From contig NZ_CP116413.1 in NCBI RefSeq assembly GCF_030064675.1, positions 6,232,001 to 6,296,000 of the forward strand: DNA of 64,000 nucleotides, in the 5' to 3' direction. The position numbers were made by a program, and so were the translations under genes. Below are positions 2,556 through 21,308 of the stretch, in pieces. The stretch comes from Crossiella sp. CA-258035 (GTDB lineage: Bacteria > Actinomycetota > Actinomycetes > Mycobacteriales > Pseudonocardiaceae). The notes under the pieces were generated by a model. It did not search any database. It was given only the letters and a program-made list of their open reading frames with translations, and was not told the DNA's origin. Each line of letters starts with the position of its first letter. Position 1 is the first letter of the stretch.

Positions 2556-3860
2556 TCACAACCGCACCACCCGGTCGGCCATCCGGTCCACCACCGCCTG
2601 GTCGTGGCTGATCAGCACGATGGCCAGGCCGAGGGTGTCGCGCAGCTCGTCGAGCAGGTCCAGGATCGCGGTCCTGGTGCCGGGGTCCAGCGCCGAGGTG
2701 ATCTCGTCGCACACCAGCACTTCCGGACCCGCGGCCAGCGCCCTGGCCAGGTTGACCCGCTGGCGTTCCCCGCCGGAGAGCCGGGCCGGGCGGTGCTCGG
2801 CCAGTCCCGGGTCCAGGTGCACCCGGCGCAGCAGCCGGGTCACCTCGGCCGCGCGGTCGGCCCTGGGCAGGCGCAGCGGGCGGGACAGGGCGGTGCGCAC
2901 GGGTTCGCGGGGGTTCAGCGCGCCGAGGGAGTCCTGCGCCACCAGGGCGATCGCGCGGCGGCGCGGGGCCGGGCTGTGCAGGGTGATGCGGCCGTGGCTG
3001 GGGCGGTGCAGGCCGACCAGGCAGCGGGCGGCAGTGGTCTTGCCGGAGCCGGAAGGTCCGGTGAGGGCAAGGCATTCGCCCGCTGCCAGGTCGAAGGAGA
3101 GATCGCGGAGGACCGGGGTGCGGTCGTGAGTGGCGGAGAGCTCGCGGACGCTGAGCAGCGGCCGCCCCGGTGTCCGGACGACCGCTGCCGCCTGCGCGAC
3201 GGACTGCGCGGCTGGGGCTCGGTCCAGCGACACCACCTTCCGCGCCAGGTCCCGCACCAGGTTCGCGTCGTGGCTGATCACCACCGCCGCGGCCTTGGTG
3301 CGGCGCAGGTGGTCCTTGAGCACCGCGCGGAACTCCACCGCCAGCCGGGTGTCCAGCCCGCTGGTCGGCTCGTCCAGCACCAGCAGCCTCGGCATCGCGG
3401 CCAGCGCGATGGCCAGCGCGATCCGCTGCGCCTGCCCGCCGGAGACCTGGTGCGGGTAGCGGCGCAGGAACCCGGGATCGGCGGGCAGGTTCAGCCGGTG
3501 CAGCAACGCGGTGGTCTCGGCCGGGTCCCGGGCGGTGTCGGCGAGCTGGTTGCGCAGGCGGCGGGCGGGGTTGAGGCCCGCCTTGGGGTCTTGGCCGAGG
3601 TAGCTGATCACCTGGCCGCGCAGGTCGGGTGCCGTGAGGTCGGCGAACATGTCGGTGCCGGCCACCTTGACTAGTCCACTGTGGACGGAAAGGCCGGGGC
3701 GGAGGTGGCCGAGCAGGGCGAGTGCGGCGGTGGTCTTGCCCGAGCCGGAGCGGCCGACCAGCGCGACCACCTCGCCCTCGGCCACCGTGAAGGACAACCC
3801 GTCGACCAGGCGGCGACCGGCAGGGCCGGTGATCACCAGGTCGGTCACCGAGGCGATCAC
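2556..3860 (-). CDS. Peptide/nickel-type ABC transporter, two fused ATPase domains
   Basis: A 434-residue protein holds two complete ABC ATPases in tandem, equivalent to DppD plus DppF. The first has GRSGSGKTT, the signature VSGGQAQR and LLVLDEPTSGLD. The second has GPSGSGKTT, LSGGERQR and VLVCDEITSALD. It would power the two membrane subunits encoded just upstream. The GTG at 3860 overlaps the permease TGA in a GTGA junction and matches the pattern of the whole operon; an in-frame upstream alternative at 3878 lacks that logic. It is the last gene of the metallophore operon. Transport direction (uptake, given the binding protein) is inferred from family. Confidence 0.9.
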   Translation of the reverse strand: MIASVTDLVITGPAGRRLVDGLSFTVAEGEVVALVGRSGSGKTTAALALLGHLRPGLSVHSGLVKVAGTDMFADLTAPDLRGQVISYLGQDPKAGLNPARRLRNQLADTARDPAETTALLHRLNLPADPGFLRRYPHQVSGGQAQRIALAIALAAMPRLLVLDEPTSGLDTRLAVEFRAVLKDHLRRTKAAAVVISHDANLVRDLARKVVSLDRAPAAQSVAQAAAVVRTPGRPLLSVRELSATHDRTPVLRDLSFDLAAGECLALTGPSGSGKTTAARCLVGLHRPSHGRITLHSPAPRRRAIALVAQDSLGALNPREPVRTALSRPLRLPRADRAAEVTRLLRRVHLDPGLAEHRPARLSGGERQRVNLARALAAGPEVLVCDEITSALDPGTRTAILDLLDELRDTLGLAIVLISHDQAVVDRMADRVVRL

Positions 3861-4639
3861 GTGGCTACCCTGCCCCACTGGTCGGCCAGCAGGTTGACCG
3901 CGATCACGAAGGCCGCCAGCAACATCGCGGGCGCGAGCACCGGCCAGGCGGTCAGCGACAGCCCGGCCAGGTTCTCCGCGACCATCTGGCCCCAGTTCGG
4001 CGCGGGCGCGCCGTGGCCGAGGCCGAGGAAGCCCGCGGTGGAGCTGAGGTAGATCGCGGCCACGAAGCGCACTCCCGCGTCGGCGAGCAGCTGGCCGCGG
4101 ATGTTGGGCAGGATGTCGTGCCGCAGCAGGGAAAACACGCTGTCGCCCCGGGCGCGGGCCACCTCGACGTAGCCCTGGGCGGCCACCGTGCTGGTCGCCG
4201 CGCGCACCACCCTGGCGCTCATCGGCGCGGTGGTGAGCACCACGGCCAGCACGATCACCAGGTCACAGCCGGGAAAACCGGCCGCCAGCACCAGCAGCAC
4301 CAGCAGCGGCGGGGCCACGGTGAGCGCGTCCAGCACCCGGATCGCCGCCCGGCCCCAGCGGTTCGGGTACAGCCCGGCGAGCATCCCGGCCAGCCCGCCG
4401 AGCGCGGTGGAGACCACGGTGGCCAGCGCGGACAGGCCGAGCACCAGGTAACCGCCGTGCAGCAGCCGGGTCAGCACGTCCCGGCCGAGCTTGTCGGTGC
4501 CCAGCAGGCAGTGGTGGTCCGGCGGCTGGAACGGCGCGCCGACCGGGGTGGTCGGCGATCCGACCGCCAGGAACGGGCCGAGCAGCGCCACCGCGACCAC
4601 CAGCGCGCACACCGAGAACGCGGTCCAGCGGCGGATCAC
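3857..4639 (-). CDS. Peptide/nickel-type ABC transporter permease (DppC-like)
   Basis: The 260-residue integral membrane protein has the DppC/NikC layout: one N-terminal membrane helix (VIRRWTAFSVCALVVAVALLG), the typical HCLLGTDKLGRDVLTRLLHG segment, then about five further helices. The cytoplasmic EAA-type loop (YVEVARARGDSVFSLLRHDILPN) contacts the ATPase. The GTG at 4639 forms a GTGA overlap with the preceding permease stop. It pairs with the next gene upstream to make the membrane channel for the substrate delivered by the lipoprotein at 5580-7181. Substrate inferred from context: the metal-loaded siderophore, or a free metal or peptide. Confidence 0.9.
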   Translation of the reverse strand: MIRRWTAFSVCALVVAVALLGPFLAVGSPTTPVGAPFQPPDHHCLLGTDKLGRDVLTRLLHGGYLVLGLSALATVVSTALGGLAGMLAGLYPNRWGRAAIRVLDALTVAPPLLVLLVLAAGFPGCDLVIVLAVVLTTAPMSARVVRAATSTVAAQGYVEVARARGDSVFSLLRHDILPNIRGQLLADAGVRFVAAIYLSSTAGFLGLGHGAPAPNWGQMVAENLAGLSLTAWPVLAPAMLLAAFVIAVNLLADQWGRVAT

Positions 4640-5583
4640 GAGGCCGCCCACGGGGTGAGCAACCGGGTGCACACATCGCCCAAGAGCAGCGCCAGCAAGG
4701 TGATCGCGCACAGCAGCAGCGCGACCCCTTGCAGGGTGGGCACATCGCGCAGGGTCACCGCGGTGGTCAGCGCCGAGCCCAGCCCCGGGTAGTTGAACAC
4801 CGTCTCCACCACCACCGCGCCGCCGAGCAGGCCGCCCGCGCCGGTGGCCAGCACCTGCACCGCGGGCGCGAGGGTGTTCGGCAGGATGTGCCGCAGCACC
4901 AGGCGCCGACCGCGGATCCCGTTGAGCCGCGCGGCTTCCAGGTACGGCGCGGCCAGGATCCCGGCCACCGCGGCCCGGATCAGCCGGGTGGTGGCGGCCA
5001 GGCTGAGCAGCAGCAGGGTGAGCACCGGCAGGACCAGCGTCTCCGGGGCGTCCAGCGCGGAACCGCCCAGTGGCACCACCGCCACCCCCGGCACCAGGCC
5101 CAGGGTGTGGGTGAGCAGGGCCAGCAGCAGCCCGGCGGTGAGGAACTCGGGCACGCCGACGCCGAGCAGGGTCGCGCCGGAGATCAGCCGGTCCCGCACG
5201 CTGCCCGGCCGCAGCCCCGCGGTGACCCCGAGCAGCAGCGCCAGCGGGATCAGCAGCGCGTACACCATCCCGGCCAGCAGCAGGCTGTTGGGCAGGCTGT
5301 CACCGAGGATGTCGGCCACCGGCCGGCCGCCGATCAGCGAACGGCCCAGATCCCCGTGCAGCGCACCACCGGCCCACTCCAGGTACCGGTCCACCGCGGG
5401 GCGGTCCAGGCCCAGCTCGGCCCGGACGCGCGCCAGCTGCACGGGGGTGGCGTTCGGTCCGGCGACCACGCCGACCGCGTCGCCGGGCAGCACCTCGGTG
5501 GCGGCGAACACCGCGACCGAGAGCGCCACCATGGTCAGCGCGGCGGGCAGCAACCGGTGCAGCACATAGCGGAACGCGCTCAC
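4636..5583 (-). CDS. Peptide/nickel-type ABC transporter permease (DppB-like)
   Basis: The 315-residue protein is a DppB/NikB-type permease with six predicted membrane helices. It has the N-terminal helix typical of the family (RYVLHRLLPAALTMVALSVAVFAATEVLPGD), the conserved RAELGLDRPAVDRYLEWAGGALHGDLG stretch, and the ATPase-docking loop YLEAARLNGIRGRRLVLRHILPN near residue 210. The GTG at 5583 overlaps the binding-protein stop by four bases (GTGA); the frame continues upstream inside the binding-protein gene but carries no permease sequence there. It forms the heterodimeric pore with the DppC-like subunit. Confidence 0.9.
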   Translation of the reverse strand: MSAFRYVLHRLLPAALTMVALSVAVFAATEVLPGDAVGVVAGPNATPVQLARVRAELGLDRPAVDRYLEWAGGALHGDLGRSLIGGRPVADILGDSLPNSLLLAGMVYALLIPLALLLGVTAGLRPGSVRDRLISGATLLGVGVPEFLTAGLLLALLTHTLGLVPGVAVVPLGGSALDAPETLVLPVLTLLLLSLAATTRLIRAAVAGILAAPYLEAARLNGIRGRRLVLRHILPNTLAPAVQVLATGAGGLLGGAVVVETVFNYPGLGSALTTAVTLRDVPTLQGVALLLCAITLLALLLGDVCTRLLTPWAAS

Positions 5584-7181
5584 CGCAGACCGGTGTGCAG
5601 GAAGCCGGGATACTGCTCCAGCAACCCGTCGCCGGGGGCCACACTGGGGTTGGCCGCGCACAGCATCGGCCGGAACGCGGGCACGATGGTGTTGCCCTCG
5701 GCCCACAGCAGGCGCTGCGCGGCCACCGCGGCCGCCTTGCTCCGGCCCGCGTCCGCGGTGCCCCTGGCCTGCACGACCAGCGCGTCCACATCGGGCCGGT
5801 TCCAGCCGAACCCGCTGGGCGAGCCCGCGGTGAACAGCGACTGGTAGTACAGCATCGCGGGCACCGCCACCGAGTAGCTGCCCGCGAACGGCAGCTGGGT
5901 GTAGGCCATGTAGTCGGTGAACAGCTGCCCCGGCGGGCGGGCGTCCAGCTTCGCGCGCACCCCGACCTTGCTCAGGTGCTCCACCACCAGGGTCGCCGCC
6001 TCCACCATGCCCGCGGTCTCCGGGCCGGTGGTCAGGGTGATCGGCAGGTTCGCCGCGCCGGCCTCGCGCAGCAGCGCGCGGGCGCGGTCCGGGTCGTAGT
6101 TGAGCTGCTCCACCTCGCCCGCGTAGTCGGGGAAGCCAAGGGAGAACAGGTCGTTGCCGATGTGCCCACGCCCGAACAGCACGTTGTCCACAATGGACCG
6201 ACGGTCGATGGCGTACTTGAACGCCTGCCGCACCCGCAGGTCCTGGAACGGCTGGTGGCCCAGGTTCAGCTCGAAGACCAGGCCGGTGGACAGCGCCATC
6301 GCCGACTCCAGCACCCGGACGCTGTTGTCGGTGGCCAGCACCTTGGCCTGCACCGGGGTCAGGTCGTGCACGAAGTCGACCTGGTGGCCGCGCAGGGCGT
6401 TCAGCCGCGCCTCGGGGTCGGCGATGGACAGCAGCTCCACGCCGTCCAGCCGGGGCGGGCTGAGGTCGTCACCGGCGAACCCGTCGTGCCTGGCCAGCTT
6501 GCTGCCCCGGCCGGGCTCGAACTCGATGAGCTTGAACGGCCCGCAGGTGGGCAGGTCCTTGGTCACGTTGGTGGTGCCCGCCTTGAGCACGTAGGCGGTG
6601 CCCATGCACAGCACCAGGTGCCCGTCCGCGATGGGCTTGCGGGTGGGCAGCAGCACCTTGTCGTCCCCGTCCGCCCTGGCGCGGTCGAGGTCGAAGTCGG
6701 CCAGCAGCCGCACGTAGTGCCCGGTGCCGGTGCTCGCGGCCAGCGCGAGCGAGGCGAGCACGTCGCGGGCGGTGACCGGGCTGCCGTCGGTGAACTTCAG
6801 GCCCTTGCGCACGCGCAGGGTGTAGCTGGACAGGTCGGCGGCCCGGTCGATCCCGGTCAGCACCTGGTAGCGCACGCCGTCGGGGGCGTTCGGGTCCAGG
6901 GTGCCGAGCACGCCGTGCAGGGCCTTGGCGCGCGCGGTGTCCAGGGTGCTGGACTGCTGGAACGGTTGCAGCGTCTCGGCCGCGCCGGAGCCGACCAGCG
7001 CGGCGCGCAGGGTGCCGCCGGGCTTGGCCGGGCCAGCGGTGGTCGTCGGCGCGGTGGCCGGGCCACCGGAGCAACCGGCCAGCACCGACCCACCGGCCAC
7101 CCCCGCGGCAGCCACGGCCAAGCCGCGTAACACCGTGCGCCGACTCAGGTTCCTGTCCACCGTGAAGCTCCTGTCGTTCAT
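5580..7181 (-). CDS. Peptide/nickel-type ABC transporter substrate-binding lipoprotein
   Basis: The 533-residue family 5 extracellular solute-binding protein begins with a twin-arginine lipoprotein signal: LSRRTVLRGLAVAAAG, then the lipobox SVLAGC with the lipidated Cys near residue 37. The mature part shows family 5 signatures such as YTLRVRKGLKFTDGSPVTARDV and RVRQAFKYAIDRRSIVDNVLFGRG. A Tat signal implies export in folded form, unusual for simple sugar binders but common for redox or metal-linked proteins. The ATG at 7181 overlaps the reductase stop (ATGA). Family 5 proteins bind peptides, nickel complexes or opine metallophores; binding of the thiazoline metallophore complex is inference from the operon. 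Confidence 0.9.
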   Translation of the reverse strand: MNDRSFTVDRNLSRRTVLRGLAVAAAGVAGGSVLAGCSGGPATAPTTTAGPAKPGGTLRAALVGSGAAETLQPFQQSSTLDTARAKALHGVLGTLDPNAPDGVRYQVLTGIDRAADLSSYTLRVRKGLKFTDGSPVTARDVLASLALAASTGTGHYVRLLADFDLDRARADGDDKVLLPTRKPIADGHLVLCMGTAYVLKAGTTNVTKDLPTCGPFKLIEFEPGRGSKLARHDGFAGDDLSPPRLDGVELLSIADPEARLNALRGHQVDFVHDLTPVQAKVLATDNSVRVLESAMALSTGLVFELNLGHQPFQDLRVRQAFKYAIDRRSIVDNVLFGRGHIGNDLFSLGFPDYAGEVEQLNYDPDRARALLREAGAANLPITLTTGPETAGMVEAATLVVEHLSKVGVRAKLDARPPGQLFTDYMAYTQLPFAGSYSVAVPAMLYYQSLFTAGSPSGFGWNRPDVDALVVQARGTADAGRSKAAAVAAQRLLWAEGNTIVPAFRPMLCAANPSVAPGDGLLEQYPGFLHTGLR

Positions 7182-8257
7182 GTCGTGCACCCCAGTTGTT
7201 CGTGCGCGGTGACCGGATCGGGAGCCTGGCCGCGCACCAGGTCAGGCTGGCCGAGCCGGCCGGTGAGGTCCTGCCAGGCCCGGACCGCGCCCAGCGCGAA
7301 CTGCCCGTGCCGCAACGGGTCCCGGTCCGCCTCGACCGCGGCGGCCAGCTCGCGCACGGCGGCGGTCGCGGCGGCCGGCCAGGTCTGGCGGAAGACGTCC
7401 TGGTAGCTGCCGGGACTGACCGGTCCGAGCAGGGCGCCGGTGGGCAGCGCGAGCTGTGGTCCGTCCAGCTCCAGCGCGCCGTGGGCGTCCCGGTCGGCGT
7501 GCAGCCGCGGGGTCCAGACCACCGGGCCGTGCGTGTCGGCCAGGGTGAGCACGCCGCCGGGCAGGCCCAAGGCGATGCGGTGCAGGAAATGTCCGTGGTT
7601 GTCCGGGTCGTCCGGGTTGATCTGGTTCTGCACCCGCAGCGTCACCGGCACCCCGCCGAGCACGCCCTGCGCCAGGCGGAACGGCGGGTCCTGCCGGGTC
7701 AGCGCACGCAGCTCGGCAGCGGGCTGCGGTAGCGCCTCCCAGGCCCAGGGGCGCAGCGTGCCCAGGGTGCGGCCGAGCAGCTCGACCATCGGGTAGCTGA
7801 CCTGCACGCTGCACGCGGCGTCCAGGAACACCGGCTCCTGGACCGCGCGCAGCCGGGCCGCGGCAGCCAAGAAGCGGGCGACCGGCTCGACGTGCGGGTA
7901 GAAGGCGTTGAGCTGGTACTGCACCTTGTTGGCCCGCGCCAGTTTCAGGCAGGCGGTCAGCTCGTCCTGGTGCACCGGCTGCTCCTGCAGCACGTGCGTG
8001 CCCCTGGCCAGGAACTCCTGCGTGAGCTCGGTGCCGCGCCCGCCGACCACGCCGGAGCGCACCACCACACAGGCGATCCGCACCTCAGCGGGCACCTCGG
8101 CCACGCTGCGGTAGAGCGGCACGCCGAACTCTTCGGCGGTGGCCGTGGACTGCGGCCCGCCCCTGCCCAGGATCCCGGCCAGCTCGAGTTCCGGGGCGAG
8201 CCGGATGCCGCGGGCGTAGAAGCGGCCGAAGGAGCCGCCTGCCACCACGACCTTCAC
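7178..8257 (-). CDS. Thiazolinyl imide reductase (Irp3/PchG family)
   Basis: The 359-residue Gfo/Idh/MocA-like NADPH enzyme matches the family that reduces one thiazoline ring of pyochelin and yersiniabactin intermediates to a thiazolidine while the chain is bound to the NRPS. Visible features are the Rossmann start VVVAGGSFGRFYARGI and the family hallmark ARGTHVLQEQPVHQDELTACL, followed by YQLNAFYPHVEPV. It starts with GTG at 8257 inside the stop of the upstream gene. In this pathway the reduction would create the ring nitrogen that the methyltransferase of the second synthetase can N-methylate. Which of the three rings is reduced cannot be read from sequence. Confidence 0.9.
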   Translation of the reverse strand: MKVVVAGGSFGRFYARGIRLAPELELAGILGRGGPQSTATAEEFGVPLYRSVAEVPAEVRIACVVVRSGVVGGRGTELTQEFLARGTHVLQEQPVHQDELTACLKLARANKVQYQLNAFYPHVEPVARFLAAAARLRAVQEPVFLDAACSVQVSYPMVELLGRTLGTLRPWAWEALPQPAAELRALTRQDPPFRLAQGVLGGVPVTLRVQNQINPDDPDNHGHFLHRIALGLPGGVLTLADTHGPVVWTPRLHADRDAHGALELDGPQLALPTGALLGPVSPGSYQDVFRQTWPAAATAAVRELAAAVEADRDPLRHGQFALGAVRAWQDLTGRLGQPDLVRGQAPDPVTAHEQLGCTT

Positions 8258-9357
8258 AGCACGCCCTCCTCGTCCTCGGCTCCGGTGTCGATGATCGCCT
8301 CCAGCACGGTGACCGCGCCAGCGGAACGAACCCGCTCGACCAGGACTTCCGGTTCCAGCGCCTGGGCGGCGAAGTGCACTCCCGGCGGGATGGCGCCGGC
8401 CAGCACCTGTTCCACCGCGGCGACCGCGACGGTGGCGGTGAGCCGGTAGCTGTCCTCGGTGCGTAGCACGGCGGTGGCCCGGTGCGGGGCGCCGTCGGCG
8501 GCGCGGCCCTCGGCGCGCACGGTGATCACGTAGTACGGGTTGCGCCCAGCCAGGTCCACCTCGGCCGCGGTGACCAGGTCAGCGGTGGCGATGTCCACTG
8601 TGGATGGTGAGGTCGGCGGTTCGGCGCGCCAGCGGGCCAGCGACATCCGGGCGCGGGGGCCGGGGAAGACGGTGTGCCACTCCACCCTGGCCGCACCGAG
8701 GGTGCGGGCCAGGCGCTGGGCCTCGGTGCTGAGGTAGGGCTGGACGGTGACCGGGTCCGGGAAGAACGGCAGCCGGGCGTCCTCGGTGACCCGCAATGCC
8801 CCTGGCCGCACCGCCCCGTCCTGCCAGGCGGCCAATGCCTGCCCGTAGGAGCCACCCGCGCCGTCGGTGCCGGTCACGCTGAGCAGCATGTCGGCCGCGG
8901 CGGCTGGGGTGCAGCGTTCCAGCCCGCCGGCGTGCGCCGACACCCGGTCAAGGCTGGCAATACCTCTGCGGGTCAACCAAATCGGCAGCACGCCGGACAG
9001 ACCTGGCACGGTGCCAGCGGACAGCACCGCGATGAAGTCCACTGGGAGAACAGCGGACCGGAGAGCTTCGTGCACCACGTCATCACCAAAAGCGTCCACA
9101 TAGGACGCGCCGGCGACCAGTGCGGCCCTGGCGACCCGGTCCCCGAGGATGGCGGACGGGCCAGCGCAGTTGAGGACTACCGTACACCCTCGGCAGAACT
9201 CGGCCAGCCGGGCCTCGTCCGTGATGTCCGTCTCCACCACCTCCGCACCCGGCCTGACCTGCGCCGGACGCCGCCGCGATCCCAGGCGCAGCGGCAACGG
9301 CAGCATCGCGGCCGCGGCCGAGCCGACCGCGCCGGAGGCGCCGAGCAGCCCGATCAC
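8254..9357 (-). CDS. Saccharopine dehydrogenase-like NAD(P)-binding protein of the metallophore operon
   Basis: The 367-residue protein opens with a Rossmann motif GLLGASGAVGSAAAAML and carries VVLNCAGPSAILGDRVARAALVAGASYVDAFGDD, characteristic of the saccharopine dehydrogenase NADP-binding family. The catalytic half is divergent. It starts with GTG at 9357 in a GTGA overlap with the synthetase stop and is co-translated with the imide reductase. It may be a tailoring oxidoreductase or enoyl-type reductase acting on the metallophore, or may make an opine-like linkage as related folds do in opine metallophore pathways; neither is proven. It is not needed in the classical pyochelin or yersiniabactin schemes, so it marks this cluster as different. 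Confidence 0.75.
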   Translation of the reverse strand: MIGLLGASGAVGSAAAAMLPLPLRLGSRRRPAQVRPGAEVVETDITDEARLAEFCRGCTVVLNCAGPSAILGDRVARAALVAGASYVDAFGDDVVHEALRSAVLPVDFIAVLSAGTVPGLSGVLPIWLTRRGIASLDRVSAHAGGLERCTPAAAADMLLSVTGTDGAGGSYGQALAAWQDGAVRPGALRVTEDARLPFFPDPVTVQPYLSTEAQRLARTLGAARVEWHTVFPGPRARMSLARWRAEPPTSPSTVDIATADLVTAAEVDLAGRNPYYVITVRAEGRAADGAPHRATAVLRTEDSYRLTATVAVAAVEQVLAGAIPPGVHFAAQALEPEVLVERVRSAGAVTVLEAIIDTGAEDEEGVL

Positions 9358-12300
9358 CGGCCCGCCCCCGGCAGCAGGGCGAGCACACCGGCGGCGTTGG
9401 CCGGGCCGAGGCAGGTGAAGTGGTCGCCGGGGATCTCCTCGATCCGCAGCTCACCGAGGCACAGCTCCTGCCAGTACGCGGTCATCCCGGCATGCAGGTC
9501 GGGCACGAAGTGCACGTCACCCCGGTCCATCAGGAAGGTGATGTCCCCGGCGTAGGGCTCGGCCTCGAAGGTGGTGACCGCCCGGAGGCTGTGCGCGAAC
9601 ACCGCGAAGCTCGCCGCCAGGTCGACCGGCTCGGCCAGCAGCGCGCCGATCGCGGCCAGCCGCTGCTCGCGCGGGCGCAGGGCCAGCGCGCCGAACCGGG
9701 CGGCGACATCGGCGAACTCGCCGTCCAGCGCGGCGAAGCAGCCGTCGGGCAGCAGGCCGGGGCTGTGCCGGAGCACGGCCTGCACGGCCGCGCCGAGCCG
9801 CTGCTCGTCCCCGGCGTAGCCGAGCCGGGCCGGGTCGACCTCCAGCAGCCTGGCGAAGGCATATTCCAGCAGCAGCTCATCCTCGATGCGGTAGGGCATG
9901 CGGTAGCAGCTGATCACGGTGAGGCTGTCCACCTCGGCCCCGGACTCGGTGAGGGTGCGGGCCAGCTCGGTGGCCAGCAGGCCGCCCATGCAGTAGCCGA
10001 CCACGTCCACGCGGTTGTGCCCGGCGGCACGCAACTCCTTGGCGTAGTCGGCAGCCAGTCTCGGCAGCAGCACCTCCGCCGGAATGTCCACATAGGACAC
10101 TGTCGGTTCCAGCCCGAGCACCGTGCGGCCACTGCGGCGCAGCTGCTCGACCATGGCGCGGTAGGGCGCGAGGGTGCCGCTGCCGTCGTGCACCAGCACC
10201 AGCGCGGGTTCCTCGTTGCCCGGCACCAGCTCGACCAGTGAGCTGCCGCCGCCGTGCTGGCCAGTGGTGGCCGGCGCGGCGCGGAGATGGTCGGCGTAGT
10301 CGGCCACGGTGGTGCCGCGCAGCACGATCCGCAGCTGGGTCTCCCAGTCCAGGGCGGCGGCCTCGGGGACCTGCTCGCGCATCCGGCCGACCACCTTGGC
10401 GGCCAGCAGCGAGTCACCACCCAGGGCGAAGAAGTCCTCGTCCCGGCCGACCCGGTCCCGGTTGAGCAGTTCGGCCCACACCTGGGCCAGCGCGGTCTCC
10501 AGCTCGTCGCGCGGCGGTTCGGCGCTGGCCTCCGGCGCACCGGACTCCACCGGCAGCCGGGACTTCAGCGCGGCGCGGTCGAGCTTGCCGTTGGCGGACA
10601 ACGGCAGCTCGTCCACGATGTGCAACTGGGCGGGCAGCATGTGCTCGGGCAGCCGCTCAGCGAGGTGGCGGCGCAGCGCGGTCTCGGTGACCGGCTGCCG
10701 GTCGGTTTTCACCCTGGCCACGAACACGTGCTGGCCCACCTCGGGGAAGTGGTCCTGCGGCCGGGGCAGGCGAGCCAGGACCTCCGCGCCCACGCCGTCG
10801 AGCTGGTCACGCCACTCCGGCGCGGAGAGGAAGACCCGGTGGTCGTGCCGCCGCAGGTCCTCGTAGCCGCTCAGACCCTCGTGGAACTCCTTGGAGATCA
10901 GCAGCGGGTGGTTGTCGCCGGTGGCGTCGATGAACACCAGGTGCCCGCCGGGCCGCAGCACCTCGCGGAGCCGGGCCAGCACGGTCGGGATGTGCTTGGC
11001 GTTGTGCAGCACGTTGGCGCACAGCACCACGTCCACCGAGTTCGGCCGCACGTCCTGCCGGACCAGGTCCACGTTGAGGTCGAAGATCCCGTAGTCCACC
11101 CAGGGGTAGTCGGCATAGCGCTTGCTCGCCTCGGTGAGGAAGAACTGGGACAGGTCGGTGAACCGGTAGCGCACGTCGAACCCGGCCAGCGCCGGGATGA
11201 GGTCGGTGCTGGTGCCACCGATGCCCGCGCCGACCTCCAGGATCCGCAGCGGTTCCGGCCCCTGGTGCGCGGCGGCGATCTCGCGGACCGCGCCCACCAC
11301 GAACTGGTTGATGTACCGTCCGATCAGGTTGGTCTGGTAGATCGCCTCCGCCACGGTGAGCTGCCCCTGCGGGAACAGCAGGGTGAGCGGGTCGATCTCG
11401 TCCCGGAACAGCGCGGGCAGGTGCGCGGCACTGTCCCGCACGTAGTCGAGCAGCTCGCGGCCGTACCGGAGCTCGGCCTGTAGTTCGTCCACAGTGGACC
11501 AGAGAGCGTCGGTCTCCCCGTCGATGCGCAGGCCGTGGTAGCGCTCGCCGTCGCGGTGCAGCAGCCCAGCTGTGGTGAGCGCGTGCAGCCAGCGGTGCAC
11601 CAGACCGTGATGCCTGGGCACCGCGCCGAGCGCCTCGATCACCTCGGCCGCGGTGTGCCTTGCCCCAGCGGCGAACAATCCGGCGTCGTGCAGCGTCCCG
11701 GCCATGATGCGCAGGGTGACCCGGTCGAAGGCGGCGGTGAACGCGGCGTAGCGGTCCGGGTCGCGGTCGGCGACCACCGCGTTCGCCTTGGCCGCGGCCC
11801 GGTCAGCCAGCTCCGCAGGCGACTCACTGTCCGATGTGGACTTCGCGGCCGGGGTGGCGAAGGCGACCAGCCTGCGGTCCAGGGTGGTCTCGCCGACGAC
11901 CAGCGCGGCGGCCGAGCCCACGGCCGGATGGGTGGTCAGCGCGGACTCCACCTCGGCCAGCTCGATCCGGTGGCCGCGGATCTTGACCTGGTTGTCCTCC
12001 CGGCCGAGGAACTCGATCACGCCCTGTTCCCGGTAGCGGCCGAGGTCGCCGGTGCGGTACAGGCGTTCCCCGGTCACCGGGTGCCGCAGGAAACGTTCCG
12101 CGGTGCGCTCGGCGTCGCCGAGGTAGCCGAGGGCGAGGCCGTGGCCGCCGATGTACAGCTCACCGGGCACCCAGTCCGGGCAGGGCCGCAGGGCGTGGTC
12201 GAGCACGTGGAAGGTCTGGTTGGTCAGCGGGGTGCCGTAGGGGATGCTGCGCGCCCCGGCCTGGACCTCGCCGATGGGGTGGTGGATGGACCAGATGGCC

Positions 12301-14789: not shown

Positions 14790-17700
14790 AGGGCACCTTC
14801 TTCGAAGGACAGCTCGGGGTCGGGCTGCTGGGTCTGGGTGAGTGCCGCGAGCGCGGCGATGGTGGGGGCGGCGAAGAGCTGGCGCAGGCTCAGCTCGAGG
14901 CCGAACTCGTTGTGCACCATGGCGACCAGCTTCATGGCCAGCACCGAGTCGCCGCCGAGGGCGAAGAAGTTCTCCTGCCGACCCAGGCCGGGCAGGCCGA
15001 GCAGCCTGGCCCACAACGCGGCCAGCCGGGTCTCCAGCTCGCCCCTCGGCTCGTCCCCGTCCTGGTCGCCGGTGGCCTCGGCCAGCTGGGCCAGTGCCTT
15101 GCGGTCGACCTTTCCGTTGGCGGTCAACGGGAACTCGGCGACCCGGTCGATCCGCGGTGGCACCGCGTAGGCGGGCAGGCGTTCGCCGAGGAAGGCGTGC
15201 ATGCCGGTGGTGTCCAGGTTCTCCTGCTCCAGCACAAAAGCGTGCAGGCGCTGGTGCCCACGTTCGCCCAGGGCGATGGCCACCGCTTGACGCACCAGCG
15301 GGTGCGCCTCGATCGCGGCCTCCACCTCGCCGAGCTCGATCCGGTGACCGCGGATCTTGACCTGGTGATCGACCCGGCCGAGGAACTCCAGGGTGCCGTC
15401 CGGCCAGTACCGGCCCAGGTCACCGGTGCGGTACCAGCGCTGCCCGTCGTGCTCGACGAACCGGGCCGCGGTGCGCTCGGGATCGCCGCGGTAGCCGGTG
15501 GCCACGCCCACACCGCCGATCCAGAGTTCGCCGGTCGCCCAGTCCGGGCGGTCCCGGCCGCGTTCGTCGACCACCCGGTAGCGCTGGTTGCGCAGCGGGA
15601 AGCCGTAGGGCACCGACGTCCAGTGCCGTGGCACCTCGCGCACGGTCAGCGCGTTGGACCAGATGGCCGCCTCGGTCGCGCCGCCGAGCGCGACCAGCCG
15701 GCAGTCGGGGGTGGCCGCGCGCAGCCGCGCGGGCAGGTCGAGGCCGACCCAGTCACCGCTGAGCAGGGCCAGCCGCAGCGGCGGGAAATCAGCCGTTTCC
15801 CCTGCGGAGAGCAGCATGTCCAGCAGCGCGGGCACCGTGTTCCACACCGTGACCCGGTGCTCGCGGCACAGCTGGAGCCAGCACCCGGCCTCGCGGCGCT
15901 CCTCCTCGCCGATGAGCACCAGCGCGCCACCGGCGGCGAGCAGGCCGAAGATGTCGTAGACGGACAGGTCGAAGTCCAGCGCGGACACCGCGAGCACCCG
16001 GTCCTGCGGGCCGACGCCGAAGCGCTCGTTGATGTCCTCAACGGTGTTGACCGCGGCCCGGTGCGAGACCTCGACGCCCTTGGGCTCCCCGGTGGAACCG
16101 GAGGTGGCGATCATGTACGCGGTGCTCGCGCGGTCCACCCTGATCGGCGCGGCCAGCGGCGCGGCCCGCTGAGCGTCCACAATGGACTCAGTGTCCAGAC
16201 TGGTGACCACGTTGGCGATCCGCCGGATCCGCTCCCGGCGCCCTGCCGGGTGGTCCACGCCGATCGGCACGTAACAGCCACCGGCGGCGAGCGCGCCGAG
16301 CACGGCGGTGATCTGTTCCGGCCCCTTGGGCAGGGTGATCGCCACCGAGTCGCCGGGCTGGACGCCTGCCGCGACCAGGTGCCCGGCCACCCGCAGCGCA
16401 CGTTCGGCCAGCTCGCGGTAGGTCAGCTCGCCGCCGTCCCAGCACAGCGCGATCCGCTCCGGCGCTTCGGCGGCCGTGGCGAAGAAACCCTCGTGCAGCA
16501 ACCGGTCCGGCTCCGGACCGTCGGTCTGGTTGACCCGCCGCCGCACGGCCTGCTGGTCGGCGGGCAGCAGCTCCGGCAGCGGCTGCTCCCACGCCGCCGG
16601 ATCCTCGGCCAGCCGCCACACCAGGTCCCGGTAGGCGGCGAACATCGCGTTCAGCAGCCCCGCCGGGAACAGCTCGGCCACCGCGTCCCAGTGAAAGACC
16701 AGATCGCCCGCGGCCTCGTAGACCTGCTGGTCCAGCCACACCTGCGGGGTCTGCGAGATGGCCCAGACCTGTTCCAGCCGGGCCGCGGCCAGGTTCTCCC
16801 ACATGGACTGGTCGAGGCCGAGCGCGCTGGTGAACACCACCGGCATCGCGGCCGCGGCCACACTGCCCAGCCGCTTGGCCAGTTCGCGCTGCACCCGCAC
16901 CGCGGAGAAGTCCCGATGTTCCAGGTCCTTGGCCAGCTGCCCCTGGGTGCGGCGCACCGCGGCGACCCAGCTCTCCCCGGGTTCGGGCCGGTGGGCGAAC
17001 AGGGCCAGCGAGGTGAAGTCGCCGACGATGTTGGCCAGGTCGGGGTGCAGGTCCCTGCGGTCGAACAGGGTCAGGTTGACCGTCAGCTCCTGCTGCGCGC
17101 TCCAGGCCGCCAGCACCTCGGCGTAGCAGTGCAGCAGCACCGCGGACGGGGTGAGGCGGTGCGCGCGGGCGAGGTCCTTGATCCGCTGCCAGTCCCGCGC
17201 GGGCAGCCGGGCGGAGCGGCGGGTGAAGTGCGGTCGCACCACGGTCGCCGGGTCCACGGCCAACGGCAGCTGCGGAGCGGCCGGCAGTGTGGGCAGCCGG
17301 TCCAGCCAGTAGTCCACAGAGGACTTCCTGGCCAGGTCCACGCCTTCCACCGCGAGCAGGTAGTCCCGGAAGGATACGTCCACTGTGGACAGTTCGGCGT
17401 CCGGGTCGACGTAGAGGCGGGCGGCCTCGGAGAGCACGATGAAGGTGCTCAGGCCGTCGAAGACGATGTTGTCCAGGCTGATGCCGATGCGCAGCCGGTT
17501 GCCGCCGTGCCGGACCGCGCGGATGTCGAACAGCGGCCAGGTCGACAGGTCGGTGACCCGGTGCGACAGCTCCTCGCGCAACGCGGCCAGCGCGGCCTGC
17601 TCGTCGGCCCCGGCCTCGGTGACCTCGATGGTGAAGCGGGGCACCTCGGCCAGGATGCGCTGGCGGCCGTCGGCATCGAAGACCGCGCGCAGCATCTCGT

Positions 17701-20700
17701 GCCGCCGGATCAGCCGGTTCCACACCTGGGCCAGGCGTTCGGGGTCCACGTCCACGCCGTCGAACTCGAAGTAGGAGTGCGCGCCGACCCCGCCGAGCAC
17801 GAACTCGCCACTGCGGCCGAGCAGGTAGGCGCGCTGCACATCGGTGCACGGGAAGGGTTCGTGCCGGTTGGCCGGATCGGGCCGCAGTGCCACCGAGGGC
17901 TCGTCCTCGGTCCGGCCACTGTGGACGGTGGCGGCGAAGTCGGCGAGCCGGGGGTTGCCGAAGAGCCGGTCCAGTCCGGCGTCGGCGAACCCGGCCGCGG
18001 CCAGCCGGGCGATCAGCCGGGTGGCGACCAGGCTGTCCCCGCCGAGCAGGAAGAAGTCGGACTCGCGGCCGATCGCGCCGACCCCGAGCACCTCGGCCCA
18101 CACCGCGGCCACCGCGATCTCGGTCTCACCCCGCGGCGGGGTGAGGACCTGCGCCGGCGCGGCGTGCTCGGTGAGCTCGCGGCACACCCGGGCGCGGTCG
18201 ATCTTCCCGTTGCCGGTGAGCGGGATCTCCGGCAGCAGCACCAGCAGGTCGGGCACCATGTGCGCGGGCAGCCGTTCGGCCACCGCGGCCAGCACCTCAG
18301 CGGTGTCCACTTCGGACGCCGCGGTGATCGCGGCGAGCAGGCGGTGACGTTCCGCGCTCGGGGCCACCACCGCGCGCCGCACCCCGGCGCACTGCTCCAG
18401 GGCGTGTTCGACCTCGCCCAGCTCGATCCGGTGGCCGCGGATCTTGACCTGATGGTCGGCCCGGCCGAGGAACTCCAGGGTGCCGTCCGGCCAGTACCGG
18501 CCCAGGTCACCGGTGCGGTACCAGCGTCCTCCGTCATATTCCACAAAGGACCGCGCGGTCAGCTCGGCATCGCCGCGGTAGCCGGTGGCCACCCCCACGC
18601 CGCCGATCCACAGCTCACCGGGCACCCAGTCCGGGCGGTCCCGGCCGCTCTCGTCGACCACCCGGTAGCGCTGGTTGCGCAACGGGAAGCCGTAGGGCAC
18701 CGACACCCACTCGGCGGGCACGCGCTCGATCTCCAGCGCGTTGGACCAGATCGCCGCCTCCGTCGCGCCGCCGAGGGCGACCAGCAGGCAGTGCCCGTCG
18801 CTGGCCGCGCTCAGCCGGGGCTGGAGGTCCAGGCCCACCCAGTCCCCGGATACCAGGGCGAGGCGCAAACTGTCTCGCAGGCCGCGCTCCCCCGCCGCGA
18901 CCAGCAGCATGTCCAGCAGCGCGGGCACCGTGTTCCACACCGTGATCCCGTGCCGTCGCACCAGTTCCGCCCAGCGGGCGGCGTCCCGGCGTTCGTCCTC
19001 GGTGATGGTCACGATCGAGCCACCGGCGGCGAGCGGCCCGAAGATGTCGTACACGGAGAGGTCGAAGTCCAGCGCGGACACCGCGAGCACCCGGTCACCG
19101 GGACCGATGTCAAAGCGCTCGTTGACCTCCTCGACGGTGTTCACCGCGGCCCGGTGCGACACCTCGACGCCCTTGGGTTCCCCGGTCGAGCCGGAGGTGA
19201 AGATCACGTACGCGGAGGCATCCACGGCCAGTCCGACCGGCGCGGGCAGCGGCGTGCACCCGGCGGCGGCGGTGAGCGCGGCGGCGTCCACGGTGGCGGA
19301 AACCCCGGCCCTGGCCAGGATTCGCGCACGGCGCAGCGGCGGCTGATCCACCCCGATCGGCACGTACATGCCGCCCGCGGCGAGCACGCCGAGCACCGCG
19401 ACGATCTGGTCCGCGCCCTTGGGCAGGGTCACCGCGACCGGGTCGCCGACGCGCACGCCGGTGGCGGTCAGCCAGGCGGCCAGGCGCAGAGCGCGGGCGG
19501 CGACCGTGCCGTAGTCCAGGTCACCGTCCGCGCCGCGGATCGCGGTCCGGCGCGGATCCCGTTGGGCCCAGGCGAAGAAGTCCTCGTGCAGCAGCTTGCC
19601 GGACTCGACCCGGGTGCTCGCGTTGACGGCCTGGCGCACCGCTCGCTGCGCGGCAGGCAGCTCCAGCGGGGCCGGTAGGTCCCAGGTGTCGGCCCCGGCG
19701 GCGAGGTGGCCGACCAGGCGGGTGTAGCCGTCGAACAGGTCGTCGACAAGGCCCTCCGGGAACAGTTCGTCCACCGCGTCCCAGGCCAGCAGCAGCTCGC
19801 CGTTGTCCTCGTAGACCTGGTGGTCCAGCCAGACCTGCGGGGTCTGGGACAGCATCCAGCTCCACTCCCCCAGCTCCGCGCGCACCCGGGGCGGGATGAA
19901 CTCGCCGCCCAGGTTGCAGGCGAAGACCACCGGCGCGCTGCGCTCCCGCCCGGTGTCGGCCCTGGCCAGGTCGCGCAGCACCTCGATGCCGGAGTAGTCG
20001 GCGTGCTCGGCGTTGCGCCGCAAGGTGGTCTGCACGGCTTTTGCTCGGTCCACAAAGGACTGTGACGTGGAGACGTCGACGGGTAACAGCACCAGGTTGG
20101 TGAAGTCGGCGACCAGGTGCGGGACCTGGGCGTGCAGCTGCTGCCGGTCGAACAGCGGCAGGTTGAGCAGGAACCGCGGCGCGGCGCTCCACCGGCCCAG
20201 CGCCTCGGCGTAGGCGGTGGCCAGCGCCATGGCCGCGGTGATCCCCCGGGCGCGCGCCCGCTCCTGGAACCGCTGCCAGTCCGTTGTGGACAGTCGATGG
20301 ACGCGGCGGCGGAACCGCGGCCGGTGCACGGTTTCCGGGGCTACGGCCAGTGGCAGCTGTGGCCCGCCCGGCAGCTCGTCCAGCTGGTCCTGCCAGTAGG
20401 CCTTGGCACGCTCGCGGTCGGCGGCGCGGGTGGCCTCGCGCTGGGCGAGGTACTGCGAGAAGCTGAAGTCCAGCGGCGGCAGGGCTTCGCCGCGGTACAG
20501 CTCGGCCAGGTCGGCCAACAGGATCTGGATGCTGAGCACGTCGGCGACCAGCAGGTCGATGTTGAGGTGCAGCACCGAGCCGCCGTCGAACTGGGTGAGC
20601 TGGACATCGAACACCTCACCCCGCTGCACCGCCAGCCGCCGGTGCCCGAGCTGCTCACGCACCTCCGCCAGCCGAAGCGCCGCAACGGGTTCAGCCAGCC

Positions 20701-21226
20701 CGGTGAGATCACGCACGGTCAGCCCCGGCCACGGGCTCTCCGGCAGCACCTGCTGGGTGCCGTCGGCGTGGAACCGCGCCCGCAGCATCGGATGTCGCGC
20801 CGCCAGCGCCCGCACTGCCGCCTCCAGGCGTCCGGCATCCAGCGGTGATCCGGTCAGCTCCACGCAGGCGTGGCAGCCGACTCCGCCGAGCCGCTGGTCA
20901 TCCCGCCGCCCGATCCAGTACGCGTGCTGCACCGGAGTTAGGCCGAACGGCGCAGTGGGATCAACCTCGGGCACCACGGCCGGAGTGGCCACTTCCTGAC
21001 TCTCACCCAGGCGTCGGCACCACTCCCCGAGCGTCGGGTGCTCGGCCAGCTCCGCGGCCGAGACCCGGATTCCGGCCCGCCGCCAGCGCCCGACCAGCTG
21101 CATCAGCCGGATCGAGTCCAGCCCCAGCACCAGCAGATCGTCCTGCTCCGCCAGGCTCTCCGGCGCCACCCCCAGCACCGCGGCGACCGTCTCTCGGACC
21201 GCATCGCGCGTCAACGCCCCGCCCAC
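14786..21226 (-). CDS. Nonribosomal peptide synthetase: ArCP-Cy-A-PCP-Cy-A-PCP
   Basis: This 2146-residue synthetase begins with an aryl carrier domain (phosphopantetheine Ser38 in LGLDSIRLM). It continues with Cy1 (about 90-520, DLLVADVLS), A1 (about 540-1025), PCP1 (FFLLGGDSLVA), Cy2 (about 1125-1560, DNIVFDGLS), A2 (about 1575-2040) and PCP2 (FFALGGDSVLA). Both Cy domains carry TPQVWLD. Both A domains show FDLSVYD, VWNTV, L-x-SGDW and LGGATEAAIW, giving the cysteine code DLYNLSLI. Each module has its own A domain and neither contains an epimerase insert, unlike PchE and HMWP2. It would condense an aryl acid with two cysteines to a bis-thiazoline. The GTG at 21226 is the first gene of the operon. 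No aryl-AMP ligase or salicylate synthase lies in the window. Confidence 0.93.
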   Translation of the reverse strand: MGGALTRDAVRETVAAVLGVAPESLAEQDDLLVLGLDSIRLMQLVGRWRRAGIRVSAAELAEHPTLGEWCRRLGESQEVATPAVVPEVDPTAPFGLTPVQHAYWIGRRDDQRLGGVGCHACVELTGSPLDAGRLEAAVRALAARHPMLRARFHADGTQQVLPESPWPGLTVRDLTGLAEPVAALRLAEVREQLGHRRLAVQRGEVFDVQLTQFDGGSVLHLNIDLLVADVLSIQILLADLAELYRGEALPPLDFSFSQYLAQREATRAADRERAKAYWQDQLDELPGGPQLPLAVAPETVHRPRFRRRVHRLSTTDWQRFQERARARGITAAMALATAYAEALGRWSAAPRFLLNLPLFDRQQLHAQVPHLVADFTNLVLLPVDVSTSQSFVDRAKAVQTTLRRNAEHADYSGIEVLRDLARADTGRERSAPVVFACNLGGEFIPPRVRAELGEWSWMLSQTPQVWLDHQVYEDNGELLLAWDAVDELFPEGLVDDLFDGYTRLVGHLAAGADTWDLPAPLELPAAQRAVRQAVNASTRVESGKLLHEDFFAWAQRDPRRTAIRGADGDLDYGTVAARALRLAAWLTATGVRVGDPVAVTLPKGADQIVAVLGVLAAGGMYVPIGVDQPPLRRARILARAGVSATVDAAALTAAAGCTPLPAPVGLAVDASAYVIFTSGSTGEPKGVEVSHRAAVNTVEEVNERFDIGPGDRVLAVSALDFDLSVYDIFGPLAAGGSIVTITEDERRDAARWAELVRRHGITVWNTVPALLDMLLVAAGERGLRDSLRLALVSGDWVGLDLQPRLSAASDGHCLLVALGGATEAAIWSNALEIERVPAEWVSVPYGFPLRNQRYRVVDESGRDRPDWVPGELWIGGVGVATGYRGDAELTARSFVEYDGGRWYRTGDLGRYWPDGTLEFLGRADHQVKIRGHRIELGEVEHALEQCAGVRRAVVAPSAERHRLLAAITAASEVDTAEVLAAVAERLPAHMVPDLLVLLPEIPLTGNGKIDRARVCRELTEHAAPAQVLTPPRGETEIAVAAVWAEVLGVGAIGRESDFFLLGGDSLVATRLIARLAAAGFADAGLDRLFGNPRLADFAATVHSGRTEDEPSVALRPDPANRHEPFPCTDVQRAYLLGRSGEFVLGGVGAHSYFEFDGVDVDPERLAQVWNRLIRRHEMLRAVFDADGRQRILAEVPRFTIEVTEAGADEQAALAALREELSHRVTDLSTWPLFDIRAVRHGGNRLRIGISLDNIVFDGLSTFIVLSEAARLYVDPDAELSTVDVSFRDYLLAVEGVDLARKSSVDYWLDRLPTLPAAPQLPLAVDPATVVRPHFTRRSARLPARDWQRIKDLARAHRLTPSAVLLHCYAEVLAAWSAQQELTVNLTLFDRRDLHPDLANIVGDFTSLALFAHRPEPGESWVAAVRRTQGQLAKDLEHRDFSAVRVQRELAKRLGSVAAAAMPVVFTSALGLDQSMWENLAAARLEQVWAISQTPQVWLDQQVYEAAGDLVFHWDAVAELFPAGLLNAMFAAYRDLVWRLAEDPAAWEQPLPELLPADQQAVRRRVNQTDGPEPDRLLHEGFFATAAEAPERIALCWDGGELTYRELAERALRVAGHLVAAGVQPGDSVAITLPKGPEQITAVLGALAAGGCYVPIGVDHPAGRRERIRRIANVVTSLDTESIVDAQRAAPLAAPIRVDRASTAYMIATSGSTGEPKGVEVSHRAAVNTVEDINERFGVGPQDRVLAVSALDFDLSVYDIFGLLAAGGALVLIGEEERREAGCWLQLCREHRVTVWNTVPALLDMLLSAGETADFPPLRLALLSGDWVGLDLPARLRAATPDCRLVALGGATEAAIWSNALTVREVPRHWTSVPYGFPLRNQRYRVVDERGRDRPDWATGELWIGGVGVATGYRGDPERTAARFVEHDGQRWYRTGDLGRYWPDGTLEFLGRVDHQVKIRGHRIELGEVEAAIEAHPLVRQAVAIALGERGHQRLHAFVLEQENLDTTGMHAFLGERLPAYAVPPRIDRVAEFPLTANGKVDRKALAQLAEATGDQDGDEPRGELETRLAALWARLLGLPGLGRQENFFALGGDSVLAMKLVAMVHNEFGLELSLRQLFAAPTIAALAALTQTQQPDPELSFEEGAL

Positions 21227-21270
21227 ACAGGCACCCCATCCCCATCGACGTCACCCACCAGAGTGAGTAC

Positions 21271-21308
21271 TTAGGGCAGCCTAACCTGAGCTTTTGTTCG
21301 TTGTTCAA
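21271..21308 (-). promoter_or_regulatory. Iron box (IdeR/DtxR-type) and likely promoter of the metallophore operon
   Basis: On the minus strand, bases 21289 to 21271 read TCAGGTTAGGCTGCCCTAA, which agrees with the DtxR/IdeR consensus TTAGGTTAGGCTAACCTAA at 16 of 19 positions. It lies 45 bases upstream of the first synthetase start. A TTGAAC (21308-21303) spaced 19 bases from TAGGCT (21283-21278) gives plausible -35 and -10 elements, with the -10 inside the iron box, so binding of the iron-loaded repressor would block transcription. Iron repression of the operon is therefore expected. Confidence 0.8.

Follow-up and report, generated by a model that had tools for sequence, protein, structure and literature searches.

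We analyzed a window of 64,000 nucleotides from the soil actinomycete Crossiella sp. CA-258035 and detected a run of eight minus-strand genes (21226 to 2556), whose overlaps suggest a single operon. By domain and motif search, the first gene codes for NRPS1 (14786–21226; 2146 residues), with the order ArCP-Cy-A(Cys)-PCP-Cy-A(Cys)-PCP, and the second for NRPS2 (9354–14786; 1810 residues), in which a TubC docking domain precedes Cy, an A(Cys) domain with an internal MT, PCP and TE. NRPS2 most likely starts at a GTG at 14786 that overlaps the NRPS1 stop, the mechanically called ORF starting at 15014. These are followed by a second reductase of saccharopine-reductase fold (8254–9357; domain search, model and homologues), SrbE/MchE-like by description; a thiazolinyl imine reductase (TIR, 7178–8257; TIGR01761 and an Irp3-like C-terminal domain); a family 5 solute-binding protein (SBP, 5580–7190; SBP_bac_5 domain and model); two Opp/Nik-type ABC permeases with BPD_transp_1 domains (4636–5706 and 3857–4711), each probably starting inside its ORF; and a fused dual ABC ATPase of 440 residues (2556–3878), in which both ATPase domains are complete, with Walker A, signature and Walker B in each half. 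An iron box of DmdR/IdeR type (TCAGGTTAGGCTGCCCTAA, 21271–21289, minus strand, by consensus match) lies upstream of the NRPS1 start. No frame of the eight is interrupted, and every catalytic motif examined is intact.

The sequence-only reading had placed both synthetases, TIR and a peptide/nickel/opine-type importer (SBP, two permeases and a dual ATPase) in one iron-regulated operon. Every part it named is present there, the domain search confirmed the importer, and the box at the promoter supports the predicted iron regulation. It overlooked the second reductase, the Cys nucleophile of the TE and the absence of any aryl-acid gene from the operon. An AAT-like gene on the plus strand (1419–2546) was considered as a member of the system and is treated as a neighbor. 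Such a gene also adjoins the clusters of G082 and G083 and occurs in G081, G185 and G187; it is regarded as a neighbor because in the last two it lies far from TIR (3 Mb in G185, a contig away in G187).

Synthetases, reductases and starter unit

The carrier-protein serines of NRPS1 lie in LGLDSIR, LGGDSLV and LGGDSVL, and its Cy motifs are DLLVADVLS and DNIVFDGLS. The corresponding Cy motif of NRPS2 is DLLIADYLS, and the MT motif interrupting its A domain is EVGAGIG. A1 and A2 have the code DLYNLSLIWK, which we take to specify cysteine, and A3 has DLYNLSLIW, the tenth position being lost through the MT insertion; the extracted codes thus bear out the earlier assignment of a cysteine code to all three A domains. 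The A1 code was also read in related clusters (51 of the 52 compared below; G046, cut by a contig end, was left out, and for G379 we read the first A domain encountered, which has no ArCP match ahead of it). In 38 of these 51 it is divergent, with G in the sixth and H in the ninth place, whereas A1 of the operon is of the Cys type. The divergent code may specify serine, by analogy with SrbC of sorangibactin as described rather than compared in sequence. In the parts of the sorangibactin report used here, cysteine was predicted for SrbC A1 and serine, giving an oxazole, was taken as used (PMC10127202), in contrast to the Cys-type A1 of the operon; therefore, cysteine predictions can mislead in the coelibactin/sorangibactin-type family.

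In the TE-bearing terminal part of NRPS2 (9357–10241, minus strand, bounds set by hand), the nucleophile is Cys (GYCMGG, codon at about 9992). The motif was GYCxGG in 42 of the 52 clusters and GYS in two; it was not found in five, and three had no TE match passing the filter. A Cys nucleophile is a rare feature, described also for SrbD (PMC10127202, section 2.3). TIR scored 315 bits against TIGR01761 in the profile search (cut-off 188.8). The second reductase (367 residues; model pLDDT 92.6) had saccharopine and carboxyspermidine dehydrogenases as its best PDB matches, and 46/52 clusters contained a homolog. The product had been proposed to be an aryl bis-thiazoline with an N-methyl thiazolidine end. 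The analysis supports an aryl-Cys3 thiazoline, but because a second reductase is present, ring 2 may be reduced as well, and the SrbD-like Cys nucleophile of the TE means that an added nucleophile may take part in release.

At a distance of 3.6 Mb from the operon, the genome has a second siderophore locus with its one salicylate synthase over the cut-off (2605550–2606884) and, some 37 kb from it, its one strong match to an aryl-AMP ligase. The ArCP of the operon may be loaded in trans from there, but its 52% identity to the ArCP of this locus does not stand out, since values of 36–55% were obtained against most of the ArCPs in related clusters. DHB was rejected as the starter in favor of salicylate, with no DhbA over the cut-off in G000, G186 or G188.

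Comparison with related clusters

Pyochelin and yersiniabactin are assembled with aryl-Cys modules and TIR, and yersiniabactin also has a polyketide part. To place the operon among its relatives, we collected clusters by TIGR01761 matches over the cut-off, which 47 of the 390 family genomes contained, at 49 places in total; clusters lacking TIR are not seen, as TIGR01761 was the finder. The 48 places besides that of the window were taken as 40-kb stretches, except for two that a contig end made shorter. Three plasmid clusters from Streptomyces, chosen for matching both TIR and SBP, brought the set to 52. These clusters are related by descent and include near-duplicates (e.g., G350/G364b and G099/G110). 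The TIR tree covers 51 of them (the fragmentary G300 was left out). Accessory genes were sought by tblastn with SAT1-cluster proteins, and absence means no match passing the filter within about 20 kb (57 kb in all for the operon's own cluster, 20 kb further for group A). Five clusters (G338, G355, G344, G006 and G021) share TIR and aryl-Cys modules with the operon but have only two Cys modules, and none of the five has an SrbE-like reductase.

The layout had been thought new. However, in synthetase order and both reductases the operon matches sorangibactin (srb, Sorangiineae MSr11367), as described in the cited parts of its report (PMC10127202): SrbC has seven domains and SrbD five in the same order, SrbE is a saccharopine-DH-domain protein and SrbI is a TIR. 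Sorangibactin production is iron-repressed, as the iron box predicts for the operon. Deletion of srbI, or replacement of srbE/F/G, abolished sorangibactin A. Unlike the operon, srb has its own genes for a salicylate synthase, a salicyl ligase, a P450, the trans-methyltransferases SrbF/G and a VOC protein (PMC10127202); P450, ligase, salicylate synthase and trans-MT genes were sought near the operon and not found. Mupirochelin (mch, Pseudomonas sp. NCIMB 10586), in the portions of its report cited here, likewise has two synthetases, a saccharopine dehydrogenase and TIR, but differs in having TonB receptors, a different set of ABC genes, genes for a P450, methyltransferases and a VOC protein, salicylate-type genes and a predicted oxazoline first ring (PMC10080011).

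Coelibactin (SCO7676-92 of S. coelicolor, with the Streptomyces plasmid clusters L155–L157 of like gene order) resembles the operon in its two synthetases, saccharopine-DH-like protein, TIR and SBP-permease-permease-ATPase importer, and the SBPs of L155–L157 are 49–51% identical to that of the operon. A known cluster with the same order, reductase and Opp-type importer is therefore nearly at hand, the S. coelicolor sequences being set against the operon by description. The coelibactin clusters just named differ in Zur control and in the A1 code DLWQLGLVHK, and they have a P450, an aryl ligase, a methyltransferase, a TE II, two ABC proteins, a salicylate synthase and a ferredoxin, which were not found by tblastn at the operon. 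Thus, the operon has the synthetase pair, the Cys-nucleophile TE and both reductases (TIR and the SrbE-like saccharopine-DH protein) of coelibactin/sorangibactin-type clusters, and the importer of coelibactin proper. Their divergent A1 code with an oxazoline/oxazole first ring is absent, and of coelibactin proper it lacks the CYP105N1-type P450, the in-cluster aryl ligase and salicylate synthase, and a Zur box at the promoter.

Metal control and reduced gene content

The iron box has three mismatches to the consensus; no second match occurs in the 64 kb, and 100 shuffles gave none. In the genome, iron-box matches occurred at 11 places (0 for a control pattern), including one beside the salicylate synthase (2607027) and one at 2623586; four other places have two mismatches versus three for the operon box. 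The genome also has two DtxR-family C-terminal-domain matches. The iron box of the operon is also present in G188, and G186 has a site with five mismatches at the corresponding place. Zur-like sites (TGAAAATGATTTTCA, ≤3 mismatches) were not detected in the 64 kb, nor were sites of a second motif variant in positions 1–40000. One Zur-like site with three mismatches was seen in the 17 kb that precede the window.

We consider it most probable (roughly three in four) that the eight genes form a compact siderophore operon related in type to the coelibactin, sorangibactin and mupirochelin clusters, whose product would be a salicyl-capped Cys3 chain with a starter from the second locus, re-imported by an Opp-type ABC system. 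At low iron, a DtxR-family repressor would leave the box and the eight genes would be transcribed together. Salicylate, made and activated by the second locus, would be loaded in trans onto the ArCP, and the three Cy-A modules would add and cyclize three cysteines. By comparison with relatives, TIR and the SrbE-like reductase might reduce one thiazoline or two, giving thiazolidines, and the last ring might be N-methylated by the MT of A3. The Cys-type TE would free the chain, either as the acid or by transfer to an added nucleophile, the route taken in sorangibactin, and the ferric complex would be taken up again by the importer. The calculated [M+H]+ would be 410.0661 for an N-methylated acid with a single reduced ring and 412.0818 with a second ring reduced, or 509.0804 and 511.0961 if the chain ends in a homocysteine thiolactone.

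Alternatively, the product may, like coelibactin, be a zincophore, or a broad carrier of Zn and Fe, and the iron box would be secondary. In the parts of the coelibactin work cited here, coelibactin is Zur-repressed and predicted to prefer zinc, and the mupirochelin report, as far as cited, describes repression of its genes by both Fe and Zn and binding of Fe, Ga and Zn, not Ni (PMC10080011). Outside the Crossiella lineage, the SBPs closest to that of the operon belong to G212, G379 and clusters of the coelibactin-P450 group (47–53% identity, versus 30–33% for groups A/B). However, the iron box sits at the operon promoter, and Zur-like sites were found near 0/3 operons of the lineage versus 11/11 coelibactin-P450 clusters (≤3 mismatches), which have no iron box. 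We therefore regard a zinc carrier as unlikely, and control in the Crossiella lineage looks iron-only from its predicted sites.

In group A, both boxes occur in 9/14 clusters, 50–141 bp apart, some at the limit (iron, four mismatches in G110, G171, G185 and G187; Zur, three in G145, G185 and G187). When the published Zur consensus of 15 bases was applied at ≤1 mismatch, the counts of Zur boxes fell to 6/11 for coelibactin-P450, 8/14 for group A and 1/14 for the others. Promoter-like windows were set by hand; of 12 permuted Zur motifs used as a control, one was the motif itself (23/52) and was left out. Metal box and A1 code were not strictly linked, as all 13 iron-boxed group A clusters have the divergent A1.

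It is possible, with somewhat less than even odds, that the coelibactin-type family switched its metal control in the course of evolution, with Zur only in P450-bearing clusters, Zur plus iron in the promoters of nine clusters, and iron only in the Crossiella lineage, which would also have dropped accessory genes and have a Cys-type first ring and borrowed salicylate. If so, one scaffold was re-assigned between zinc and iron, and ligand changes could be read against regulator changes. Coelibactin was named a zincophore with no isolated product in the cited coelibactin work; an iron-boxed relative with the smallest gene set of the 52 and a Cys-coded first module offers a tractable case for structural features that separate zinc from iron ligands. 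The roles of the SrbE-like reductase and Cys TE could be approached separately because other tailoring genes are absent, and sister clusters with tandem boxes allow a direct test of whether one metallophore is under dual control.

The reduced gene content could also mean that the operon is what remains of a larger coelibactin-type cluster and is decaying or already non-functional. Of the 52 clusters, the three of the Crossiella lineage are the only ones with none of the usual accessory genes in a range of about 20 kb. In addition, G186 has kept its SBP, next to which neither a permease nor an ATPase was matched, and the sequence upstream of the promoter resembles, by eye, broken genes. Against this, besides the open frames and intact motifs, seven of the eight proteins match those of Crossiella sp. 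SN42 at 95–99% and the ATPase at 86% (the SN42 locus holds part of NRPS1), and the parts retained in G186 match at 62–81%; decay is judged slightly less plausible still than a zinc carrier.

The importer and its ligand

The SBP model (pLDDT 83.1) matched DppA, YliB, AapF, AgaA, NikA, NikZ and AccA in the PDB, a range over peptide, opine, sialic acid, nickel and metal-complex binders, and its fold is common to binders of chelated metals (a Ni-thiazolidine complex, 4xkr; Fe-EDTA, 1zlq). It identifies neither ligand nor metal. Every listed Nik/Cnt family model fell below its curated cut-off (for the ATPase, among the best 25 of 195 families). The pairing of thiazoline chemistry with a Nik/Opp importer had been read as a hint of nickel or copper; this is unsupported because the SBP fold is non-diagnostic, the sole box found is of the iron type and mupirochelin showed no Ni binding, and we rejected a nickel/copper ligand as the default.

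Such an importer is an ordinary part of the coelibactin-type family: its genes lie near 32/52 related clusters (not 32 independent cases, given their common descent), including three coelibactin-type ones from Streptomyces. That it carries something else, such as a peptide or nickel-histidine, and merely shares the operon would fit the breadth of SBP family 5 but is improbable, as the same four genes recur around related clusters although their order and orientation vary, a pattern that points to a functional link with the siderophore genes. Elsewhere in the genome, two adjacent YbtPQ-like places (2269769–2271571 and 2271553–2273247), with no iron box listed near them in the genome search, are 53% and 39% identical to a SAT1 ABC protein, and another place (3886594–3888357) is 47% identical to a SAT1 ABC protein.

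Gene content of the operon and its relatives

Eight genes with overlapping ends occupy 21226 to 2556 of the window on the minus strand, in the order NRPS1, NRPS2, a second reductase, thiazolinyl imine reductase (TIR), solute-binding protein (SBP), permease, permease and fused dual ATPase. The genome (G000) is a single contig of 9,170,171 bases. We read these genes, with a probability of about 0.77, as a compact siderophore operon of the coelibactin/sorangibactin type. NRPS2 most likely starts at the GTG at 14786, overlapping the NRPS1 stop. The motifs of all four carrier proteins are intact, as are those of the three Cy domains, MT and TE. Both halves of the fused ATPase are complete, and its linker is shorter than in Crossiella sp. 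SN42, the closest named relative (TIR identity 96%). The parts named in the sequence-only reading were present; the second reductase (8254-9357) and the Cys nucleophile of the TE had been overlooked.

Of 390 genomes of the family, 47 carry TIGR01761 matches above cut-off, at 49 places in all. Genes were mapped by tblastn in 52 clusters: the 48 of these places outside the window, the window cluster itself and three from Streptomyces plasmids. All four importer genes lay near 32 of the 52; in another genome (G003), SBP and one permease were found at the stretch edge. In the three Streptomyces clusters, the genes are arranged as ferredoxin, SBP, permease, permease, ATPase, aryl-AMP ligase, NRPS, NRPS, then saccharopine-DH protein, TIR, P450, hydrolase/TE, methyltransferase, two ABC proteins and salicylate synthase, an order which fits the legend for the coelibactin cluster SCO7676-92 (PMC3430247, legend). 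The pairing of thiazoline chemistry with an Opp/Nik-type importer, previously singled out as notable, is therefore ordinary in this family. G186, a genome of the window's Crossiella lineage, keeps SBP alone (L109, 17854-19419), with no adjoining permease or ATPase match.

Genes for aryl ligase, salicylate synthase, P450, trans-methyltransferase, TE II and YbtPQ-like ABC proteins are missing within ~20 kb of the clusters of G000 and the same-lineage genomes G188 and G186, and only these three among the 52 lack all six types. In the TIR tree they group as a single clade (100/100), with G211 and G379 as a weakly placed sister (83/88).

Adenylation codes, second reductase and thioesterase

Aligned to window A1, the code of A1 and A2 is DLYNLSLIWK and that of A3 is DLYNLSLIW, its last position being lost to the MT insertion. 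We take this type to be a cysteine code, and the three cysteine codes claimed earlier are borne out. S in the sixth and W in the ninth A1 position, as in the window, occurred in 13 of the 51 clusters read, and G and H in 38; among 46 clusters with at least three modules, A1 was divergent in 38 and window-like in 8. The divergent code was present in all 11 clusters whose P450 is >45% identical to that of SAT1, the cluster supplying query proteins; G185 and G187, though congeners, carry another cluster kind with divergent A1. Because A1 of SrbC (sorangibactin), predicted to use Cys, is yet taken to use Ser (PMC10127202), we infer that the divergent code may specify Ser. In G211 (L069/L070) and G272 (L151/L152), clusters combine a TIR with four cysteine-coded A domains; an aryl-Cys4 product is possible for these.

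The structure model of the second reductase (367 aa, pLDDT 92.6) matches saccharopine reductase, carboxyspermidine dehydrogenase and lysine dehydrogenase, enzymes that act on C-N/C=N bonds. Homologs were detected by tblastn in 46/52 clusters and were absent from all five two-module clusters and from one of 47 with at least three modules, a correlation among related clusters that fits action on an additional ring. By their descriptions, SrbE of sorangibactin (PMC10127202) and MchE of mupirochelin (PMC10080011, in excerpt) are its counterparts. The TE of NRPS2 has the motif GYCMGG with a Cys nucleophile; Cys is essential in the SrbD TE, for whose release an addition of homocysteine or methionine and a thiolactone end have been proposed (PMC10127202).

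Iron and Zur-like boxes

Promoter-like windows were searched for iron boxes (≤4 mismatches) and Zur-like boxes (≤3), which were found in 17/52 and 23/52 clusters, respectively. Twelve permuted iron motifs and eleven true Zur permutations each occurred in at most 1/52, and when all stretches were shuffled twice by mononucleotide, 0 iron sites and 1 Zur-like site appeared. The coelibactin-P450 group had Zur-like boxes in 11/11 (stricter published consensus 6/11) and iron boxes in 0/11. Group A had iron boxes in 13/14, Zur-like boxes in 9/14 (stricter 8/14) and both in 9/14, where they lie 50-141 bp apart, several sites being at the mismatch limit. These dual-box operon heads are L101 (G145), L103 (G110), L111 (G370), L145 (G236), L122 (G185), L126 (G171), L132 (G187), L134 (G105) and L142 (G233). 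In the window's Crossiella lineage, iron boxes were found in 2/3 and Zur-like boxes in 0/3 (stricter 0/3), and the third cluster (G186) has a 5-mismatch iron site in the same place. Iron, Zur-like and stricter Zur counts were 1/5, 0/5 and 0/5 in the split-NRPS group, 0/5 for each in the two-module group, and 1/14, 3/14 and 1/14 in other clusters.

In S. coelicolor, the SCO7676 and SCO7681/7682 promoters are bound by Zur (PMC5472717, in excerpt); according to the excerpted PMC12161575, the coelibactin cluster yielded no recovered DmdR1 sites. A switch of metal control within the family is conceivable, at somewhat under even odds. Among the open-licence papers listed, no title or opening of an abstract describes the window operon or dual boxes, which is weak evidence of absence; the excerpted Crossiella genome paper had 0 occurrences of "coelibactin" and "thiazol".

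Predicted product, candidate salicylate supply and neighboring genes

Salicylate and three cysteines with three cyclisations give a calculated C16H15N3O3S3. With one N-methyl, calculated [M+H]+ values are 410.0661 (one reduction) and 412.0818 (two) for the acid, and 509.0804 and 511.0961 with homocysteine thiolactone. By calculation, the formula of sorangibactin C is accounted for by a salicylate, one Ser and two Cys units, two methyl groups, a thiolactone and two reductions; thus, two of its rings are reduced. By our count, sorangibactin D, the TIR-deletion product, matches in formula the acid with both reductions missing. The structure proposed from sequence, a bis-thiazoline ending in an N-methyl thiazolidine, is one option but not the favoured one. 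The mupirochelin ion, m/z 509.1345 (PMC10080011, in excerpt), equals the value calculated for sorangibactin C (C22H28N4O4S3), printed as 509.1332 (PMC10127202). Although they are drawn with a terminal carboxyl and a thiolactone, respectively, the two could be isomers or a single compound.

In G000, a single salicylate synthase scores over cut-off, and a single aryl-AMP ligase match is strong (675 bits, below the 723.55 cut-off of the DHB-specific model; next match 233 bits). About 37 kb separates the two, which belong to a second siderophore locus (2.60-2.65 Mb; 2596000-2655999, L054-L056) along with SBP5-type transporter genes, an ornithine/lysine N-oxygenase, a further ArCP-Cy-A protein, two long NRPS frames, two Peripla_BP_2 proteins and two iron boxes, one beside the salicylate synthase and the other at 2623586. 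In each of the five genomes of the genus, the one salicylate synthase that passes cut-off shares its contig with a 659-683-bit ligase. An additional second ligase and DhbA over cut-off were detected in G185 and G187 and not in G000, G186 or G188. The two G000 ArCPs are 52% identical over 75 residues, no higher than the identities to the ArCPs of many related clusters, so this likeness does not by itself establish shared loading. Other metallophore clusters have been reported whose starter genes lie elsewhere in the genome (PMC12971057, in excerpt).

Before the operon promoter, 21.3-22.3 kb resembles broken-gene pieces by eye. An AAT/choloylglycine-hydrolase-like gene (1419-2546, plus strand) is convergent with the operon; such a gene also adjoins a different TIR cluster in G082/G083 but, in G185 and G187, occurs apart from clusters of this sort. 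A NACHT protein with an NNH1 N-terminal domain is encoded at 24024-27041 (minus strand). At 32638-35126 (minus strand), a pyridine nucleotide-disulphide oxidoreductase adjoins a protein that has a ferredoxin-like match and, below cut-off, a ferric-reductase-like one.
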